Shown piece by piece: positions 17,483 to 23,328 of a DNA stretch of 23,850 nucleotides. Below the pieces are notes generated by a model. It searched no databases, was not told where the DNA came from, and worked only from the letters and a program-made list of their open reading frames with translations. The stretch lies in NCBI GenBank assembly GCA_024223125.1, contig JAAEOP010000409.1, positions 1 through 23,850 of the forward strand, given 5' to 3'. Every line of letters begins with the position of its first letter. The stretch's first letter is position 1. A program made the position numbers and the translations under genes. This DNA is from Chloroflexota bacterium. Lineage in GTDB: Bacteria; Chloroflexota; Anaerolineae; Promineifilales; Promineifilaceae.

Positions 17483-18490
17483 CTATTTGTGTGTTGAAGC
17501 GTGTAAGATACACCACTCCAATTCGGTGTCGGTTATCGGAATGCCATCAACCCCGACGCCTTCCAGAACTTTTCCGGTAGGGGTTGGACTTGCAGCGCCA
17601 ACGCAGCTATTCATTATTTTGACTCGCCAACTTGCATGATGAAAATGGGAAACGGCCGTTTCCCGATACAAAAACGTTTCCAACCCCGACTCCCAAATTA
17701 CCTTTGCATTGACTTCATCATCCTCTGGAAAGAAAAAGGAGACGCCCAGAAAACGGCCGTTGACGATCCGACCCAACTCCGCGCCTAAAGCGCCAGGTTT
17801 TTCAATGTTAGGCAATCCCAAATTTGTGGTCATTAGCGGCACAACATTGTCCCTAAAAGGTGTACGCCGGGCGTCAAAAGCCAGCAGTGTTACCCGATCA
17901 TAGTAGCCAAAGTGAGACAAATAAAGCCGATTGCGCCGCAGCACACGCGGGCTGAAATCGGTGGCGATAATGGGTTGATGGCGTTGTTGGATCAACTTCT
18001 CTACCAAATAACCACGACCTGAAGCCAGATCAACGATTGGTTCGTTGGACGAGCCAAGTTGAGCTAAAAGAAAATCAACCTGACTGCTCCAGCATGTCAA
18101 GTAATCATTTGTATATAGTCCTACCTGTGCGGTTTCTTCAGCCTGTTTTGCCTCAGCGTACTGGCCTTTCTCGTCCAACACCATTGACCGAAACATCTGG
18201 TCAGCCGGGGATATAGCTTCTAATGGCGGTTCCATCAATTGCCGTTCAACCTCAGGATGATCTCGCAAAAACTTCATGAGATTGCTATCAACTTGTTCCC
18301 ACATATCATTACGGGGTAGGTCGGGCAGTAGGAAAATGCCGATCTCATCTCGAACGGGGTAGTTGGATTGACAGGTCAGGCAATTTGCCACGGCCGTGTG
18401 TAGTCGTTCAGACGTCTGTTTCTCAATCTCCCAGACCAGTTCTCCATGGCAGGCCGGGCAAACGAGCATATCTATTACATATTTATGCAT
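17483..18490 (-). CDS. Trm112-like zinc-ribbon + SAM methyltransferase
   Basis: This 335-aa protein starts with a Trm112-type zinc ribbon: DMLVCPACHGEL with Cys11/Cys14 and NCLTCQSNYPV with Cys37/Cys40. After a helical linker comes a Rossmann methyltransferase domain with SAM motif I PIVDLASGRGYL (151-162), motif II IIATDFSPRVLRRN and a motif IV region (LLAFDARRTPF, VVPLMTTNLGLPNI). The substrate is unknown; the Trm112-like part may hold the substrate or partner. It starts directly at the stop of the upstream methyltransferase (TAA-ATG), and the strong Shine-Dalgarno GGAGGT (18502-18497) lies inside the upstream coding end, so translation of the two is coupled. The last 40 residues (CVGAASPTPTGKVLEGVGVD) are less regular. 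It ends 34 bases from the convergent esterase gene. Confidence 0.85.
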   Translation of the reverse strand: MHKYVIDMLVCPACHGELVWEIEKQTSERLHTAVANCLTCQSNYPVRDEIGIFLLPDLPRNDMWEQVDSNLMKFLRDHPEVERQLMEPPLEAISPADQMFRSMVLDEKGQYAEAKQAEETAQVGLYTNDYLTCWSSQVDFLLAQLGSSNEPIVDLASGRGYLVEKLIQQRHQPIIATDFSPRVLRRNRLYLSHFGYYDRVTLLAFDARRTPFRDNVVPLMTTNLGLPNIEKPGALGAELGRIVNGRFLGVSFFFPEDDEVNAKVIWESGLETFLYRETAVSHFHHASWRVKIMNSCVGAASPTPTGKVLEGVGVDGIPITDTELEWCILHASTHK

Positions 18491-19213
18491 TTAGCCACCT
18501 CCTTTTGTGGCGCTGATTAGAAAGAAAGGGAGATGGGCAATTTGTGCCCATCTTTCGGTTAACTGATCAGAAAAATTGGCGCACTGATTTAATCTACTTC
18601 TTTCCGTTTCTGCTAATGGGAGCGTTTGTAAAAAGTCAAATCGGGTGGGGGAAGCTGGTAATACCTTATTTAGTAAATTCAGTTCTACCTGAAAATCAGT
18701 CTGAGTCAGCAGCCCTGGCAGTTGTCGGCCGATCTCCGGTTCAGCCCCAGCGCGGGTCAAAGCAGCCAGCCAAAGGTCACGGGTAGCTATTTCAGGAGGG
18801 TATTCTATCATGCCTGCATAATCCGGTTCCAGGGCGATGAGGATGCCGCCGGGTTGTAAGACGCGGTAGATTTCGGCGACGGCCGTTTCCACATCTCCCA
18901 CCCACAGCAGCACACATTGGCAAAACACCAAGTCAAACGTCTCATCTGCAAAAGGTAATCTGAGCGCGTCCCCGTTCACACATTCATTATGGGCGCTTTT
19001 TGGGAGGGCGGCCGTTTCCCTATCCAACGCTACCACAAGACCGCTGCCCCGCCGGACTAATTCCCCCGTTACCGCTCCGTACCCCGCGCCTAAATCTAAA
19101 ATCGGCCGTCGGTGAGCAATGCCCGTCCGCCGCAGCAGCCGCGCCCGCGCCGGGGCTAACCAGCTAGCCTGTTGTTGTAATAAATGTTGGGAAGGAAGCG
19201 CGGGTAAGTTCAT
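18491..19213 (-). CDS. Class I SAM-dependent methyltransferase
   Basis: This 240-aa Methyltransf_11-type enzyme has motif I ILDLGAGYGAV (38-48), the acidic end of strand two in VVALDRE, the GDALRLPF segment, FDLVFCQCVLLWV and EIYRVLQPGGILIALEPDY. Its fold resembles ubiquinone/menaquinone-type and small-molecule methyltransferases, but the substrate cannot be told. The start is taken as ATG 19213, giving MNLPALPSQHLL; a TTG at 19237 would overlap the preceding gene's end by 8 bases. Its C-terminal KGGG is encoded by the Shine-Dalgarno of the next gene, which begins at the base after its stop. The tight pairing with the Trm112-like methyltransferase suggests that they work on related substrates. 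Confidence 0.87.
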   Translation of the reverse strand: MNLPALPSQHLLQQQASWLAPARARLLRRTGIAHRRPILDLGAGYGAVTGELVRRGSGLVVALDRETAALPKSAHNECVNGDALRLPFADETFDLVFCQCVLLWVGDVETAVAEIYRVLQPGGILIALEPDYAGMIEYPPEIATRDLWLAALTRAGAEPEIGRQLPGLLTQTDFQVELNLLNKVLPASPTRFDFLQTLPLAETERSRLNQCANFSDQLTERWAQIAHLPFFLISATKGGG

Positions 19214-19229
19214 GATGCCAGTTTGTAAT

Positions 19230-19994
19230 TTAATCAATCAACTGTATGCCATGTTTATCACAATGGGCGCGTACTTCATCACTCGCTGCCAGAGAAACGA
19301 ATATACCTTCTACCTCTTTGTCCTGGTTTTGGGCTGCAATCACCTGTATTTTTAAGGCAAACAGTTCTACGTCGCCAGGTTTAGCCGTTGCCTTTACTTC
19401 TAAGACCGATATTTTGCCATTCTCAATGATCAGGTCAACTTCTGAAGTAAAGCCAGACGGAAAAACGAGATGATCTGCATCGTCCAGAGTTTGGCGCAAA
19501 TGTATACTCTCTGCTTTAAGGTCTGGATTATTCAGTCCATAACGTAGCGCTTCGGCAAACAAATCTTCCAATGTTTGTCCCTTATCGTTTCGCATCTGCC
19601 CGGTGACAAATCGTAGCCATTTTTCCTGGCCGTCTATCTTTTTGATAATCAGTTCTTGTCCATGACGTAACTGGATAATATCCCGTTTCATACCCAGTTG
19701 TTCTTGGTGGACTTCATCAAAGCGTTGGTCAACCTGCTCAAAGCGTTGGTCAACCTGCTCAAAGCGTTGGTCAACCTGCTCAAAGCGTTGGTCAACCTGC
19801 TCAAAGTTTTCCTTTGTTTCCTGGCGGTGTTCTCTCACTTCAGCCAACATTTGGGCCAGCTCATCCCGGCGAGGGAAATGTTCGGCTAGAATGCCCTCAA
19901 TTGTGGTGGCAACTTCTGGTTCCTGACGAATGATGTCAGGCAGGATTTTGATTATGTAATCTCGAATTTGCTTAAACTCATTTTCAGCCAACAT
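19230..19994 (-). CDS. Coiled-coil protein with PD-(D/E)XK nuclease-like domain (DUF3782-type)
   Basis: This 254-aa protein has an N-terminal helical part, then near-identical heptads EQVDQRF (about 65-92), a coiled coil encoded by four exact 21-bp tandem units, then a C-terminal domain. That domain reads DHLVFPSGFTSEVDLIIENG and ISVLEVKATAKPGDVELFAL, with Asp187 and Glu199-x-Lys201. This matches the PD-(D/E)XK nuclease core, with Glu143 a candidate first acid. Such DUF3782-like proteins are common in cyanobacteria and Chloroflexota and are often multi-copy; no reaction is established to my knowledge. DNA binding or cleavage is possible. It overlaps or nearly abuts the methyltransferase that follows, so it belongs to the five-gene minus-strand run. 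Confidence 0.8.
   Translation of the reverse strand: MLAENEFKQIRDYIIKILPDIIRQEPEVATTIEGILAEHFPRRDELAQMLAEVREHRQETKENFEQVDQRFEQVDQRFEQVDQRFEQVDQRFDEVHQEQLGMKRDIIQLRHGQELIIKKIDGQEKWLRFVTGQMRNDKGQTLEDLFAEALRYGLNNPDLKAESIHLRQTLDDADHLVFPSGFTSEVDLIIENGKISVLEVKATAKPGDVELFALKIQVIAAQNQDKEVEGIFVSLAASDEVRAHCDKHGIQLID
19720..19803. repeat. Four exact 21-bp tandem repeats inside a gene
   Basis: The unit AAGCGTTGGTCAACCTGCTCA (21 bp) is repeated four times without a mismatch. On the coding (minus) strand each unit adds one heptad EQVDQRF to a coiled coil. Exact identity implies recent slippage or recombination, so the copy number is likely to vary between strains. Confidence 0.9.
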
Positions 19995-20063: not shown

Positions 20064-21944
20064 CTATCGTCCACCACCGGCGCAGGCGCAGGCGCAGGCA
20101 CACCCGGCACAGGCGCAAGCGCAGCTACTGCCGCCGGAAGATGAGCCGCCGCTGCCGCCAGATGAGGAAGAGAGCGCCTTGAACACATCCCCCGTTACTT
20201 TGTCGGCACCGCTCAAATTGATGATACCGCCGGAGGCTTCTTTCCCTTGCAAGATTGTGGGGGAAATTGCATCGGTTAGTTTTCCGGCCGTGTTTTCTGT
20301 CCAGCCAGCGAAGGAGGCAGCTACATCGCTGAAAGTGGTTTTGCCGCCGTAAGACGGCCCCGATTGGCCACCAGTGGGAAGGCTGGGGCCGCTGGAGCTA
20401 CTGGAATGGGTGTGGGCATACGGCCGTGCCCATCCCGGATAATAATGATAACCGTGCCGTCGGAATGATTTGTCATAATCATCATCCAGAAAAATCCAGG
20501 GCCATGTTTTGTCCAGATGAGATTCCAGTTCGGGAACCTCGCCAATACGTTTGGCTTGCTCCATTGCCTGGGCAATAATCTTGTGGTAATAATCCTGCGT
20601 GTCAGAGAGATCAAATCCTTTCATGCGAGTGACTACACTTTTGATTAACCTCTTCATGGGGGCGCTGAATTCCAGTTTATGTACCGGTTCGCCATCATCA
20701 TTTTGCAGTACATTCAGAAATTCATGTTCATAATTGCGGAGGACGATGCCCTGTTTTTGGGCGATTTTTTGCCGCTGCTGCCGCCGCACTTTGGCAGATT
20801 TCTTATCAATAAAATAAGCCCGCTCAACCACAACCCGCAGCGGAGAATCATCTTTGAGCGTTATTGTGCCTTTATCTAGCAGGCCAAAGATGATGAGCAG
20901 CAGTACTTTGTTCAAGGGCAGTTCCAGCAAGATGGCTGCTTCGGGGGCGGTTAGGCCACGTTTGATGCCGCCTCCCTCTACCTGAGCAATAGCCGGTAAA
21001 TATTTATCCTTTTTGGTAGCCACCCGCCATTCAACAAAGCCAACGGCCGCAATGGAGATGGGTAGCGCCAGCAGCACGGCCGTTGGATTCACAAACAACC
21101 ACCAGATCAAACCGCAGGCCACCATAGCAAAGACGATAAAGCCTGTGCCGCCACTAAATCGGAAAAAAGACACCGCCAACAAAATAAATGTCAACACGCC
21201 AAAGAATATGACGATGCCAGGATTATCTGTCAGCCATTTCTGTACAATGTCTAGCAATGTTTGCTCGATGACCCGGCTCATGCCAGTGGTGGGGAAAGAA
21301 ACGCCAACCCGATGTGCTTCGGTAGCCAGCGCCGTCGGCCAATGCCAGCCGACAACGGCATGTTCCTCAAACGTGGTCTTATCGGTAAAAGCTTCATCCT
21401 GGTACAACACATCCTCTCCGTTTACTTCTGGCAGCATGTGAACGACCACAAAAATGTCTGAACTACCGGCCACTACTGACGGATCAAACCAGGTAGGCGT
21501 TATTTGCATGGAAGCGTAGTCATCTTGGGTTGTGTCTTCATAAACCATGTCCGGCATAGGAAACTCAACATGCAGTACACCGCTTCGACCGGGTTGGATT
21601 GCCTGATCGTGCAGGTGGATTTCTACGCCAGTGTCAATATATTCAGATACGCGGATATCGGTGAGGGGACGGCCGTTGATGGACGCCTTGAAGTCGCTCA
21701 GATTATAGTCTTTATGCGGCGTGCCAATATCTACAATATCAATGGCTGAGTAACCGGGTTTATTGGCAAAGGTCATGTCGTAGATGATGTAGGCGGAAGC
21801 GTCTGGCTGTACAAAAACCTGCATTCGCAGTTCGGGTACGCCAAAGAAGTATTTCTGTGCCTGGGATGGGGCAGCAGAAACAAGCAGAAGCAACAGTAGT
21901 CCCAGAAAAGAGATGAGGGTAAGGGGGGAGCGGCTGTTTTTCAT
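20064..21944 (-). CDS. DUF2207-type membrane protein with C-terminal Cys-Ala repeat
   Basis: This 626-aa protein has a signal peptide (about 1-29, ending PSQAQ), an extracellular beta-rich DUF2207-like domain (30-240), transmembrane segments at about 243-262, 267-285 and 287-304, and a predicted cytoplasmic part from about 310 with a winged-helix-like stretch (LTAPEAAILLELPLNKVLLL). It then has a low-complexity Ser/Gly tail. The last 19 residues are (CA)3-G-(CA)4-GGGR, seven cysteines at 608, 610, 612, 615, 617, 619 and 621, while the rest has almost no Cys. Regular Cys repeats at a C-terminus next to a Gly-Ser linker look like a peptide-modification or metal site. The gene before it in the operon encodes a SPASM-containing radical-SAM relative. 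A Shine-Dalgarno AAAGGAG lies 10 bases before ATG 21944. Confidence 0.85.
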   Translation of the reverse strand: MKNSRSPLTLISFLGLLLLLLVSAAPSQAQKYFFGVPELRMQVFVQPDASAYIIYDMTFANKPGYSAIDIVDIGTPHKDYNLSDFKASINGRPLTDIRVSEYIDTGVEIHLHDQAIQPGRSGVLHVEFPMPDMVYEDTTQDDYASMQITPTWFDPSVVAGSSDIFVVVHMLPEVNGEDVLYQDEAFTDKTTFEEHAVVGWHWPTALATEAHRVGVSFPTTGMSRVIEQTLLDIVQKWLTDNPGIVIFFGVLTFILLAVSFFRFSGGTGFIVFAMVACGLIWWLFVNPTAVLLALPISIAAVGFVEWRVATKKDKYLPAIAQVEGGGIKRGLTAPEAAILLELPLNKVLLLIIFGLLDKGTITLKDDSPLRVVVERAYFIDKKSAKVRRQQRQKIAQKQGIVLRNYEHEFLNVLQNDDGEPVHKLEFSAPMKRLIKSVVTRMKGFDLSDTQDYYHKIIAQAMEQAKRIGEVPELESHLDKTWPWIFLDDDYDKSFRRHGYHYYPGWARPYAHTHSSSSSGPSLPTGGQSGPSYGGKTTFSDVAASFAGWTENTAGKLTDAISPTILQGKEASGGIINLSGADKVTGDVFKALSSSSGGSGGSSSGGSSCACACAGCACACACAGGGR

Positions 21945-21972
21945 TTTATGTGTTCTCCTTTTTTCAGTGTGC

Positions 21973-22023
21973 AGTTTTCAGTGTGCAGTCGTTATATTGC
22001 GTGAAGAGATATTACTGAAAACT
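21973..22023. repeat. Spacer inverted repeat with CAGTTTTCAGTGTGCAG words
   Basis: AGTTTTCAGT (21973-21982) and ACTGAAAACT (22014-22023) are perfect complements with a 31-base loop. The CAGTGTNCAG and CAGTTTTCAG words here also occur right of the MITE at 13976-14002, an unrelated locus. Confidence 0.55.
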
Positions 22024-22032
22024 AAAAACTGA

Positions 22033-23328
22033 TTACCGAAAACTGGCCCACCCGGACGGTTCTCGCGGACAGTCGGCCATGCAAATAACCAGACCGGGGC
22101 AATCTACACAGCGGGTTGGTTCCGCTACTCGTTCACGATAACGGGTAAAGGGGTCCCGGTCCCAGATGGTTTGCCAATCGTCGCTTAAAATGTTTCCAGC
22201 CGCCTGGTAAGGGCCGCGTGGGGGAATGACACGGCCGTCAGCTTCAATCCGTACTGCTGCATCTCCGGCACTGCGCGGTCCTTGCTGCACCTGTTCCGCC
22301 AGCGTTTGATGGGGGTTGCGTCGTACCGGTGGCTGCCAGATAAAACGTACATCTAGTTGATTGCTGATCTCTTCTACCCAATCGGCCGTTTGCGGCATTG
22401 CCTGAGCAGTTAAAGCGGCGTCTCGTTCTTCATCACTCATTCCATCGGGGGCAACAATGGCAAAAAAGGAGAAAGTTGTAATTCCAATCTGTATCAGATT
22501 GTTTAGCGTTTCCTGTAAACTAGAGACGCTTCCTTCAATTAAGGCGATTTCGGCCACCGGATACACTTCCTGGGCGTACGCATCGTTGATGAGGGCTATT
22601 ACCGCTTCATGATCGTCACGGCCGCAAAGGGTATCATGGTCGGCCGTGCCTCCCGCCACCACTAAAACTGTCACATGATCCACTCCCGCCTGCGCCAAAT
22701 CAGCCAATAAAGAAGCATGACTAAGGTCAGTTGCCCGACCGCGTACCCCGGCAATCATGCCCAGGTCTTCAGCCCGCTCGACCGACCGCACCAAATGCAC
22801 CGGGTCAAATTTTTCTGGCACAAAGAAGGTGATATGCGGAATGCCGATTTCCCACAAGCGATTCAGAAGAGGCACGATTTGTTCTGGCGGGGCCAAAGAA
22901 ACGGTGGCTTCCAGAGGGGCAAACAGTTCCGATTCAAAAACGGTGGGATTCAATTCATCCAGATTCAAGATAGGGTAATCATCTTCTGGCATAACCAGCC
23001 TGTTGATGATGCCTTTCACTTGCTGCAAATCGGCTTGAATGATTTCTGGTGTTGCCCCCTTAAATCGTGATTTGATTGATTTCACGATTTCATCTTCGGG
23101 CTGTTTATCTAGCAGCCCTTTGGCCATAAGAGCGCCGGTGGGGGAGAGACGGGCGGCGGCCGATGCATTAGCCAATAACATACCTCGGCCGTCTGGTTCT
23201 ACCCGTAAATGAAAGCGTGTGTACAAACCATCATGGTCTTGCATGTAATGATATAAGCCGGGTGCAATCGCCTGGGTCTGTTTTGCCCGATGAGGAATCA
23301 GCCATTGGCGAAGTTTCTCTTTGTCCAT
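22033..23328 (-). CDS. Degenerate radical-SAM/SPASM-like protein with PqqD-like N-terminus
   Basis: This 431-aa protein has the layout of a peptide-modifying radical SAM enzyme. A PqqD-like region (about 40-112: LLANASAAARLSPTGALMAK, EIVKSIKSRFKG) is followed by a TIM-barrel-like middle beginning PLEATVSLAPPEQIVPLLNR (138-157), and then a SPASM-like end: RIEADGRVIPPRGPYQAAGN, ILSDDWQTIWDRDPF and RCVDCPGLVICMADCP with Cys407, 410, 416 and 420. The CxxxCxxC motif that binds the radical SAM cluster is absent; the chain passes straight from ATVS to the first helix. The GGEP-like motif reads VPEK, and one SPASM Cys position is Pro370. It probably cannot do SAM cleavage itself, but it may bind one Fe-S cluster or act as a scaffold. 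AAGGGG lies 6 bases before ATG 23328. It leads the operon with the Cys-Ala tail protein. Confidence 0.75.
   Translation of the reverse strand: MDKEKLRQWLIPHRAKQTQAIAPGLYHYMQDHDGLYTRFHLRVEPDGRGMLLANASAAARLSPTGALMAKGLLDKQPEDEIVKSIKSRFKGATPEIIQADLQQVKGIINRLVMPEDDYPILNLDELNPTVFESELFAPLEATVSLAPPEQIVPLLNRLWEIGIPHITFFVPEKFDPVHLVRSVERAEDLGMIAGVRGRATDLSHASLLADLAQAGVDHVTVLVVAGGTADHDTLCGRDDHEAVIALINDAYAQEVYPVAEIALIEGSVSSLQETLNNLIQIGITTFSFFAIVAPDGMSDEERDAALTAQAMPQTADWVEEISNQLDVRFIWQPPVRRNPHQTLAEQVQQGPRSAGDAAVRIEADGRVIPPRGPYQAAGNILSDDWQTIWDRDPFTRYRERVAEPTRCVDCPGLVICMADCPREPSGWASFR

Follow-up and report, generated by a model that had tools for sequence, protein, structure and literature searches.

A Cys-Ala-tailed membrane protein and its radical-SAM/SPASM partners: a candidate protein-tail maturation system of bacteria and archaea

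The 23,850-nucleotide contig JAAEOP010000409.1 of a Chloroflexota bacterium (assembly GCA_024223125.1), taken here as a whole and called the window, carries on its minus strand a large membrane protein ending in alternating cysteine and alanine residues and, directly upstream of it, a gene resembling the S-adenosylmethionine (SAM)-dependent radical enzymes with PqqD-like and SPASM domains that modify peptides. The question raised by this locus is whether the second protein matures the tail of the first, as was proposed in an original prediction made from the letters of the sequence. Both genes lie where that prediction placed them, and the window is probably part of a conserved system in which the tail is the substrate of a radical-SAM complex. 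The features on which the argument turns are the following.

20064..21944, minus strand: tailed DUF2207-like membrane protein, 626 residues (open reading frame)
20067..20123, minus strand: tail CACACAGCACACACAGGGR, residues 608-626, the proposed substrate (comparisons of homologues and of tail loci)
20124..20222, minus strand: residues 575-607, with the subfamily majority sequence NLSGxDKVTGDxFKAL and the Gly/Ser linker, a proposed recognition element (alignment)
22033..23328, minus strand: pseudo-radical-SAM/SPASM protein, 431 residues, with a PqqD/RRE-like N-terminal domain (RRE, the precursor recognition element of ribosomally synthesised and post-translationally modified peptides, RiPPs), a radical-SAM-like barrel lacking CxxxCxxC, and a SPASM region (profiles, alignments, structure model)
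22069..22110, minus strand: CX2CX5CX3C (C407, C410, C416 and C420), the sole retained cluster-type Cys motif (motif count in homologues)

The tail forms the last 19 residues of the protein after the Gly/Ser linker, as had been described, and it is conserved almost to the letter. The end CACAGCACACACAGGGR is present in 118 of the 120 best homologues, down to 49% identity; the two non-conforming records are P0142, a partial record cut inside the tail, and P0194, whose unrelated-looking C-terminus is probably read in the wrong frame. The closest named homologues are found in Chloroflexota metagenome-assembled genomes (MAGs), e.g. Ardenticatenaceae and Promineifilaceae. A protein search with the tail region returned mostly the same family, and no count was drawn from it. 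About 85,000 genomes were scanned for the pattern CACACAGGGR with a stop-like codon behind it, which yielded at least 117 loci. Their neighbourhoods were examined within 8 kb, many of them being cut; the counts of tail loci below are among the 117 matches listed. These matches comprise 116 distinct DNA strings using all six Arg codons and all three stop codons, which indicates that selection acts on the protein and rules out a chance or DNA-level repeat. A repeat search of the window revealed only imperfect pairs of 27 and 24 nt.

The tail belongs to one protein family and is widespread. All 110 tailed open reading frames of at least 80 residues among the matches listed correspond to the profile of the window protein family, the remaining seven being cut short (16-74 residues). 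By record labels, the loci carry 17 NCBI phylum names, together with three Aminicenantes; 70 are from Chloroflexota and 19 are archaeal, 13 of the latter being labelled Asgard. According to the record titles, four cultured Anaerolineae bear the tail. The most common spelling among these matches is (CA)4G(CA)3GGGR (55), followed by (CA)3G(CA)3GGGR (15), (CA)5G(CA)3GGGR (13), the exclusively archaeal (CA)6GGGR (11) and the form of the window, (CA)3G(CA)4GGGR (11), so that the common forms contain six to eight Cys. One unusual record, L167 (978-4406), is a 1143-residue reading frame that joins a TPR-like body to the C-terminal end and tail of this family, and represents either a real chimera or an assembly error.

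The tailed protein had been labelled as DUF2207-type, which holds in the sense of remote homology (profile-profile probability 99.3%, E 4.8e-20) and fails as a domain assignment: no Pfam family was matched by the window protein, DUF2207 being absent even at E 0.1, and no NCBIfam family, including TIGR04222. In the structure model (mean pLDDT, the per-residue confidence, 78.4) and by sequence features it is predicted to consist of a signal peptide, an extracytoplasmic beta domain, one or more transmembrane segments, a cytosolic helical domain, the disordered Gly/Ser linker and the Cys-Ala tail. The model contains helices at residues 242-264, 269-285 and 289-310; residues 566-626 are below pLDDT 50, including a helix at 578-594. 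The N-terminal part is similar to the beta domains found in M1 aminopeptidases in a structure-library comparison whose matches are domain-level only (TM-score 0.19-0.24 on the query). A hydropathy scan of 89 family members predicted one transmembrane segment after residue 120 in 47, two in 26, three in 10 and four in 6; these mixed counts result from a conserved soluble helix being scored as transmembrane, as at residues 338-356 of the window protein, which form a helix in the model. The chain after the last membrane helix is basic (e.g. RKRRKSKEY in L003), which together with the structure model points to a Cys-Ala tail in the cytosol, the compartment in which radical-SAM enzymes act.

The neighbouring SPASM/PqqD-like gene has a fold of the expected type and is unlikely, judging by its sequence, to be the catalyst of tail maturation. 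Its structure model (pLDDT 87.2, pTM 0.85) contains the full RRE, barrel and SPASM fold, with SuiB (5v1q, E 1.5e-11) as the best match, followed by SkfB (6efn) and PqqE (6c8v), while a sequence search of the PDB with the same protein found no significant match. The protein falls under the Pfam cut-offs for Radical_SAM, SPASM (19.1 bits against 21.5, a value that a homologue in L019 reaches with 21.6) and PqqD (18.5 bits against 23.4, yet with a full-length fold match to SuiB). The radical-SAM motif CxxxCxxC was not found within residues 60-300 of any of the 120 best homologues, the protein itself included, which marks it as a pseudoenzyme and led to its rejection as the catalyst; CX2CX5CX3C is present in all 120 and invariant or nearly so in the alignment.

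A live relative exists. Two paralogues of this family occur near tails, the pseudo form and a canonical one that has a PqqD/RRE-like N-terminal domain, CxxxCxxC and SPASM; they are homologous (hhalign E 1.3e-96), and the window gene scores 658 bits with the pseudo profile vs 244 bits with the canonical profile. In the tail loci among the matches listed, CxxxCxxC is present in 81 of 81 canonical copies of at least 380 residues, with invariant alignment columns, and in none of 42 pseudo copies, and CX2CX5CX3C is found in 79 of the 81. The PqqD score of canonical enzymes is 22.8 bits in L018 and 27.8 bits in L003 (cut-off 23.4), the N-terminal domain of the family matches the RRE protein TfuB1, and the closest solved structures are the RiPP maturases SkfB, PqqE and SuiB. 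In close relatives of the window the canonical enzyme and a small membrane zinc-ribbon gene lie immediately upstream (L127, L130) or on a different contig (genome G001, L132 and L175). Four enzyme-family matches from the genome searches (L134, L153, L164 and L209) contain one in-frame stop within the matched stretch, which may reflect a frameshift, an error or recoding.

Tail and enzyme are closely linked. An enzyme-family gene lies directly downstream on the same strand in 87 of the 95 type-B and archaeal loci with at least 400 nt of downstream sequence, and upstream on the same strand in 9 of the 11 loci of type A, the type of the window, with at least 2400 nt upstream; tailed proteins among the matches listed are thus found mostly with the SPASM-like neighbour. 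By profile, the family is present within 98 of the 117 listed loci. The eight type-B loci without an adjacent gene all have a catalytic enzyme elsewhere in the genome (556-680 bits). Three loci show an additional arrangement (L023:2062-5191, L034:2783-5433 and L095:353-2981), in which a radical-SAM gene of the type-A clade, its C-terminus extended and in part rich in Cys and Gly, stands beside a short tail-less DUF2207-like protein, this pair being faced by a type-B tailed gene and a pseudo-enzyme gene on the opposite strand.

The association holds across whole genomes. Among 199 genomes of the Anaerolineae class, 23 have the tail pattern, 26 the canonical enzyme (580 bits or more) and 22 both, leaving one with the pattern only, four with the enzyme only and 172 with neither (Fisher 3e-24). 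The single pattern-only case is a 32-residue chance reading frame, and three of the four enzyme-only genomes (G030, G152 and G181) have the gene less than 450 nt from a contig end. Among 119 genomes of the phylum to which a Hodarchaeota MAG belongs (Asgard), the enzyme was found in 27, the tailed protein in 24 and both in 23, with one genome having only the tailed protein and four only the enzyme (Fisher 2e-19); the C-terminus was readable in 19 of the 24, and all 19 end in CACACAGGGR. The score thresholds in both sets were chosen post hoc at a clear score gap, and genome completeness is unreported for both. The spelling of the tail also follows the enzyme tree, with 5 changes vs 34.3 in shuffles, half of the type-B rows having been dropped.

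Ordinary DUF2207 proteins provide a control. They were found in 44 of 60 genomes from the class of the Anaerolineae set, and the PF09972 match is lacking in eight of the nine tail-bearing genomes among the 60 searched, being present in the ninth, G080. In 30 control loci, 25 of which have a readable C-terminus, no Cys was found in the last 45 residues (0 of 25), the ends being of the Gly/Ser type, and no enzyme-family gene lies within the 2-3.6 kb examined.

A second type of tail was found with an enzyme subfamily of its own. This subfamily, scoring about 330-390 bits, is present in 24 of the 199 Anaerolineae-class and 17 of the 119 Asgard-phylum genomes. In all six Asgard loci read, a DUF2207-like protein with an (ACHS)n tail is encoded beside the second enzyme or in the same genome; an ACHS-tailed neighbour occurs in three of the five Anaerolineae loci read, the other two being without one. 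In the Asgard set, 15 of the 17 genomes with the second enzyme also have the second tailed protein and 15 of the 17 with that protein also have the enzyme; no crossing between the first and second pairs was observed. The ACHS-tailed proteins are homologous to the first family (profile-profile 99.9%), and that of L172 matches Pfam DUF2207 (30.9 bits, cut-off 24.4) and reaches 38.1 bits with TIGR04222 (cut-off 43). Loci of this second system are L164, L165, L172 (4226-7582) and L241-L246, and in L172 a zinc-ribbon membrane protein is encoded near it.

Two other genes recur with the tail, and one of them is in the window, downstream of the tailed gene. The original prediction had left open whether three further genes belong; a comparison of tail loci by blastp retains the first methyltransferase and sets aside the other two.

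19230..19994, minus strand: PD-(D/E)XK-like coiled-coil protein between the tailed gene and the methyltransferase, judged not to belong to the system (blastp)
18491..19237, minus strand: class I SAM-dependent methyltransferase, 248 residues, a member of the system (Pfam Methyltransf_11, E 1.3e-21; recurs in tail loci)
17483..18490, minus strand: second methyltransferase, immediately behind the conserved one, with a Trm112-like zinc-binding N-terminus, judged not to belong to the system (profiles, blastp)

The first methyltransferase has blastp homologues in many tail loci and profile matches in 65 of the 117 listed, archaeal loci included. For the PD-(D/E)XK gene no homologue was detected at E 1e-5 among the reading frames of the listed tail loci, and the second methyltransferase has one marginal match there (E 3e-7). 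The coiled coil of the former contains tandem in-frame FEQVDQR repeats (window positions 19698-19800). The other recurrent gene encodes the small membrane zinc-ribbon protein, recovered by clustering in 67 of the listed loci and always on the strand of the tailed gene. The most complete arrangement is that of L166 (Chloroflexota), where the zinc-ribbon protein, the canonical and pseudo enzymes, two tailed proteins and the methyltransferase are encoded on one strand within 10 kb. Fusions were also found: in L108 (1-1668, minus strand) the pseudo-radical-SAM protein and the methyltransferase form one reading frame, and in P0071 the pseudo enzyme reads into the start of the tailed protein, possibly by error as the contig is 1.7 kb long. 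PADLOC returned superfamily-level matches only, namely viperin models for the radical-SAM enzymes, mad2 for the methyltransferase (1.5e-14) and weak coiled-coil matches for the PD-(D/E)XK gene; it gave no match for the tailed, pseudo or zinc-ribbon proteins and nothing defence-specific.

The following scheme may be proposed. The tailed protein would be anchored in the membrane with its Cys-Ala repeats predicted to face the cytosol. A catalytic enzyme with a PqqD/RRE-type N-terminal domain and a full SPASM domain, whose gene adjoins the tailed gene in most relatives and is absent from the window, would bind the conserved stretch before the linker through its RRE, for which residues 575-607 are the candidate site, and modify the repeats, most plausibly to Cys thioethers; sactionine-like cross-links within the alternating tail are a possible, if tentative, form of this chemistry. 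The dead paralogue in the window is probably either a partner of the live enzyme in a complex or a protein that presents the tail. The methyltransferase that recurs with the system may make or finish a second modification, and the small membrane zinc-ribbon protein seen in relatives would complete the set. The expectation that a SPASM/PqqD-type partner matures the tail of a large membrane protein is thus supported by linkage and genome-wide co-occurrence, with the correction that the window gene is a pseudoenzyme and its catalytic paralogue is a separate gene absent from the window. More speculatively, the radical-SAM complex could build on the cytosolic tail a protein-borne cofactor or a rigid redox or metal structure, in a housekeeping rather than natural-product system of anaerobic bacteria and Asgard archaea that has at least two tail codes (CA...GGGR and ACHS), each with its own enzyme subfamily.

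Several observations weigh against this interpretation. The canonical enzyme and the zinc-ribbon gene were not found in the window by profile search, and in the 8-kb neighbourhoods, many of them cut, the zinc-ribbon protein and the methyltransferase accompany only 68 and 65 of the 117 listed loci. Two type-A loci are exceptions to the linkage, L100 having a fragment only and L071 (Armatimonadetes) a tail with no enzyme match. Five enzyme-positive Anaerolineae or Asgard genomes have no tailed gene and are off known contig ends or unchecked in this respect (G029, where none is present in the 11 kb read, and G254, G261, G272 and G278). In L034 and L095 a type-B tail occurs together with a type-A-clade enzyme, and operon co-inheritance would likewise produce the clustering of tail spellings on the enzyme tree. 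What the data show is fold, conservation, linkage, co-occurrence and the loss of the radical-SAM motif; that the tail is modified, by what chemistry and on which side of the membrane, that the paralogues form a complex, and what the methyltransferase and zinc-ribbon protein do are inferred.

Among other explanations, the tail might be an unmodified metallothionein-like C-x-C thiolate or Fe-S site which the radical-SAM partner only binds, reduces or loads. Where Cys alternates with a small residue, the C-x-C spacing typical of metal-thiolate sites results, six to eight Cys per tail would suit such a site, and a membrane zinc-ribbon protein accompanies the tail. However, all 81 canonical copies retain the complete radical-SAM motif and the enzyme has an RRE-like domain, both of which fit chemistry on the chain better; moreover, metal binding alone would require neither an Ala as invariant as the Cys nor a fixed GGGR end. 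We therefore regard this possibility as unlikely.

The enzyme could instead act on another member of the set, with the tail as a docking or regulatory element, and the zinc-ribbon protein could itself be a modification target. Among the matches listed it ends in PKW in 65 of 67 cases and in W in all 67 (e.g. L018:6440-6823 and L019:6577-7014). SPASM enzymes are known to form Lys-Trp links, and the pseudo enzyme has as its top structural match SuiB, which we take to be a Lys-Trp cross-linking enzyme. The Lys is not universal, though, being replaced in the ends PVW and PIW (L032, L081) and PTW (L157); the zinc-ribbon protein is found in fewer listed loci (68 of 117) than the enzyme family (98 of 117); and it is the type of tail, not the zinc-ribbon end, that varies with the enzyme subfamily. 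Such a role of the tail is accordingly rather improbable.

A cleaved sorting or degradation signal, processed by the neighbouring gene products, would agree with a fixed C-terminal string after a flexible linker, as in other C-terminal signals, but is very improbable, since no transmembrane helix follows the tail, no peptidase or sortase is among the recurrent neighbours, and the tail occurs on one family only (110 of 110 testable among the matches listed), the chimeric L167 also carrying the C-terminus of that family. Linkage and co-occurrence never prove a common reaction, but mere co-inheritance with an enzyme that makes an unrelated small molecule can be given hardly any weight, as the pairing is kept on different contigs (8 of 8 type-B exceptions listed), in bacteria and archaea, and for two tail/enzyme pairs.

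Maturation of the tail by a radical-SAM complex, the reading preferred here, may be compared with known systems. Most of what is known of radical-SAM/SPASM maturases concerns small secreted peptides, together with a few enzyme subunits. The system resembles RiPP maturases such as SkfB, SuiB, PqqE and the sactisynthases in combining RRE, radical-SAM and SPASM domains with a Cys-rich target encoded beside the enzyme gene. In contrast to them, the likely target is the end of a membrane protein some 600 residues long rather than a small dedicated precursor peptide, export or peptidase genes do not recur, and the gene set extends to a dead paralogue of the enzyme, a methyltransferase and a zinc-ribbon protein of the membrane. 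The NCBIfam equivalog scores examined are far below cut-off (e.g. PqqE, 122.7 against 381). TIGR04347 of haloarchaea, which we take to be a pseudo-SAM/SPASM family with a radical-SAM/SPASM-like fold and no catalytic motif, is reached by the window gene with 23 bits against a cut-off of 525. The best NCBIfam match of the methyltransferase is the DVU_1556 family (79.6 bits, below the cut-off of 155), and one zinc-ribbon protein weakly matches DVU_1557 (17.2 bits, below the cut-off of 60); these two families presumably form one system with the radical-SAM protein TrsS.

For the paralogous pair, thuricin CD may serve as a working precedent by analogy: TrnC and TrnD are paralogous radical-SAM proteins in a tight complex in which radical-SAM activity is needed in only one (PMC12093266). 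There both proteins are active and the target is a small bacteriocin, whereas here the second copy lacks the motif. Pfam DUF2207 proteins share with the tailed protein remote homology over the N- and C-terminal domains and a low-complexity C-terminus, and a mutant phenotype has been described for such a relative in Streptococcus mutans (PMC10457818).

Among the papers listed in searches of an open-access library, none was found on the tailed protein and radical-SAM pair. The nearest published idea is that of the TIGR04222 membrane proteins, which have a Ser/Gly-rich C-terminus interspersed with Cys, are often encoded near MNIO enzymes and are predicted to be MNIO substrates (PMC12452194). They are mostly from Actinomycetota, their tail is predicted to be periplasmic, and their association with the enzyme is looser, 490 of the 1372 genomes in Table 3 of that paper lacking MNIO. 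Both systems unite a membrane protein, a Cys-rich tail and a RiPP-type modifying enzyme nearby, with modification predicted in each; the system of the window differs in its radical-SAM/SPASM enzyme, its occurrence in bacteria and archaea, and its near-invariant tail of predicted cytosolic location. The other class of enzyme, the archaeal reach, the more constant tail and the lack of any Pfam or NCBIfam model that recognises the tailed protein suggest RRE/radical-SAM/SPASM maturation of a Cys-rich target in a new form, with a reasonable chance that its product is novel. That the tail is preserved almost to the letter between Chloroflexota and Asgard archaea speaks for a basic role in the cell. 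DUF2207, TIGR04222 and the tailed families may then be united as a membrane scaffold repeatedly provided with a modifiable Cys-rich tail; the two tail/enzyme pairs make substrate specificity directly testable, and the cultured carriers make the tail accessible in the native protein.

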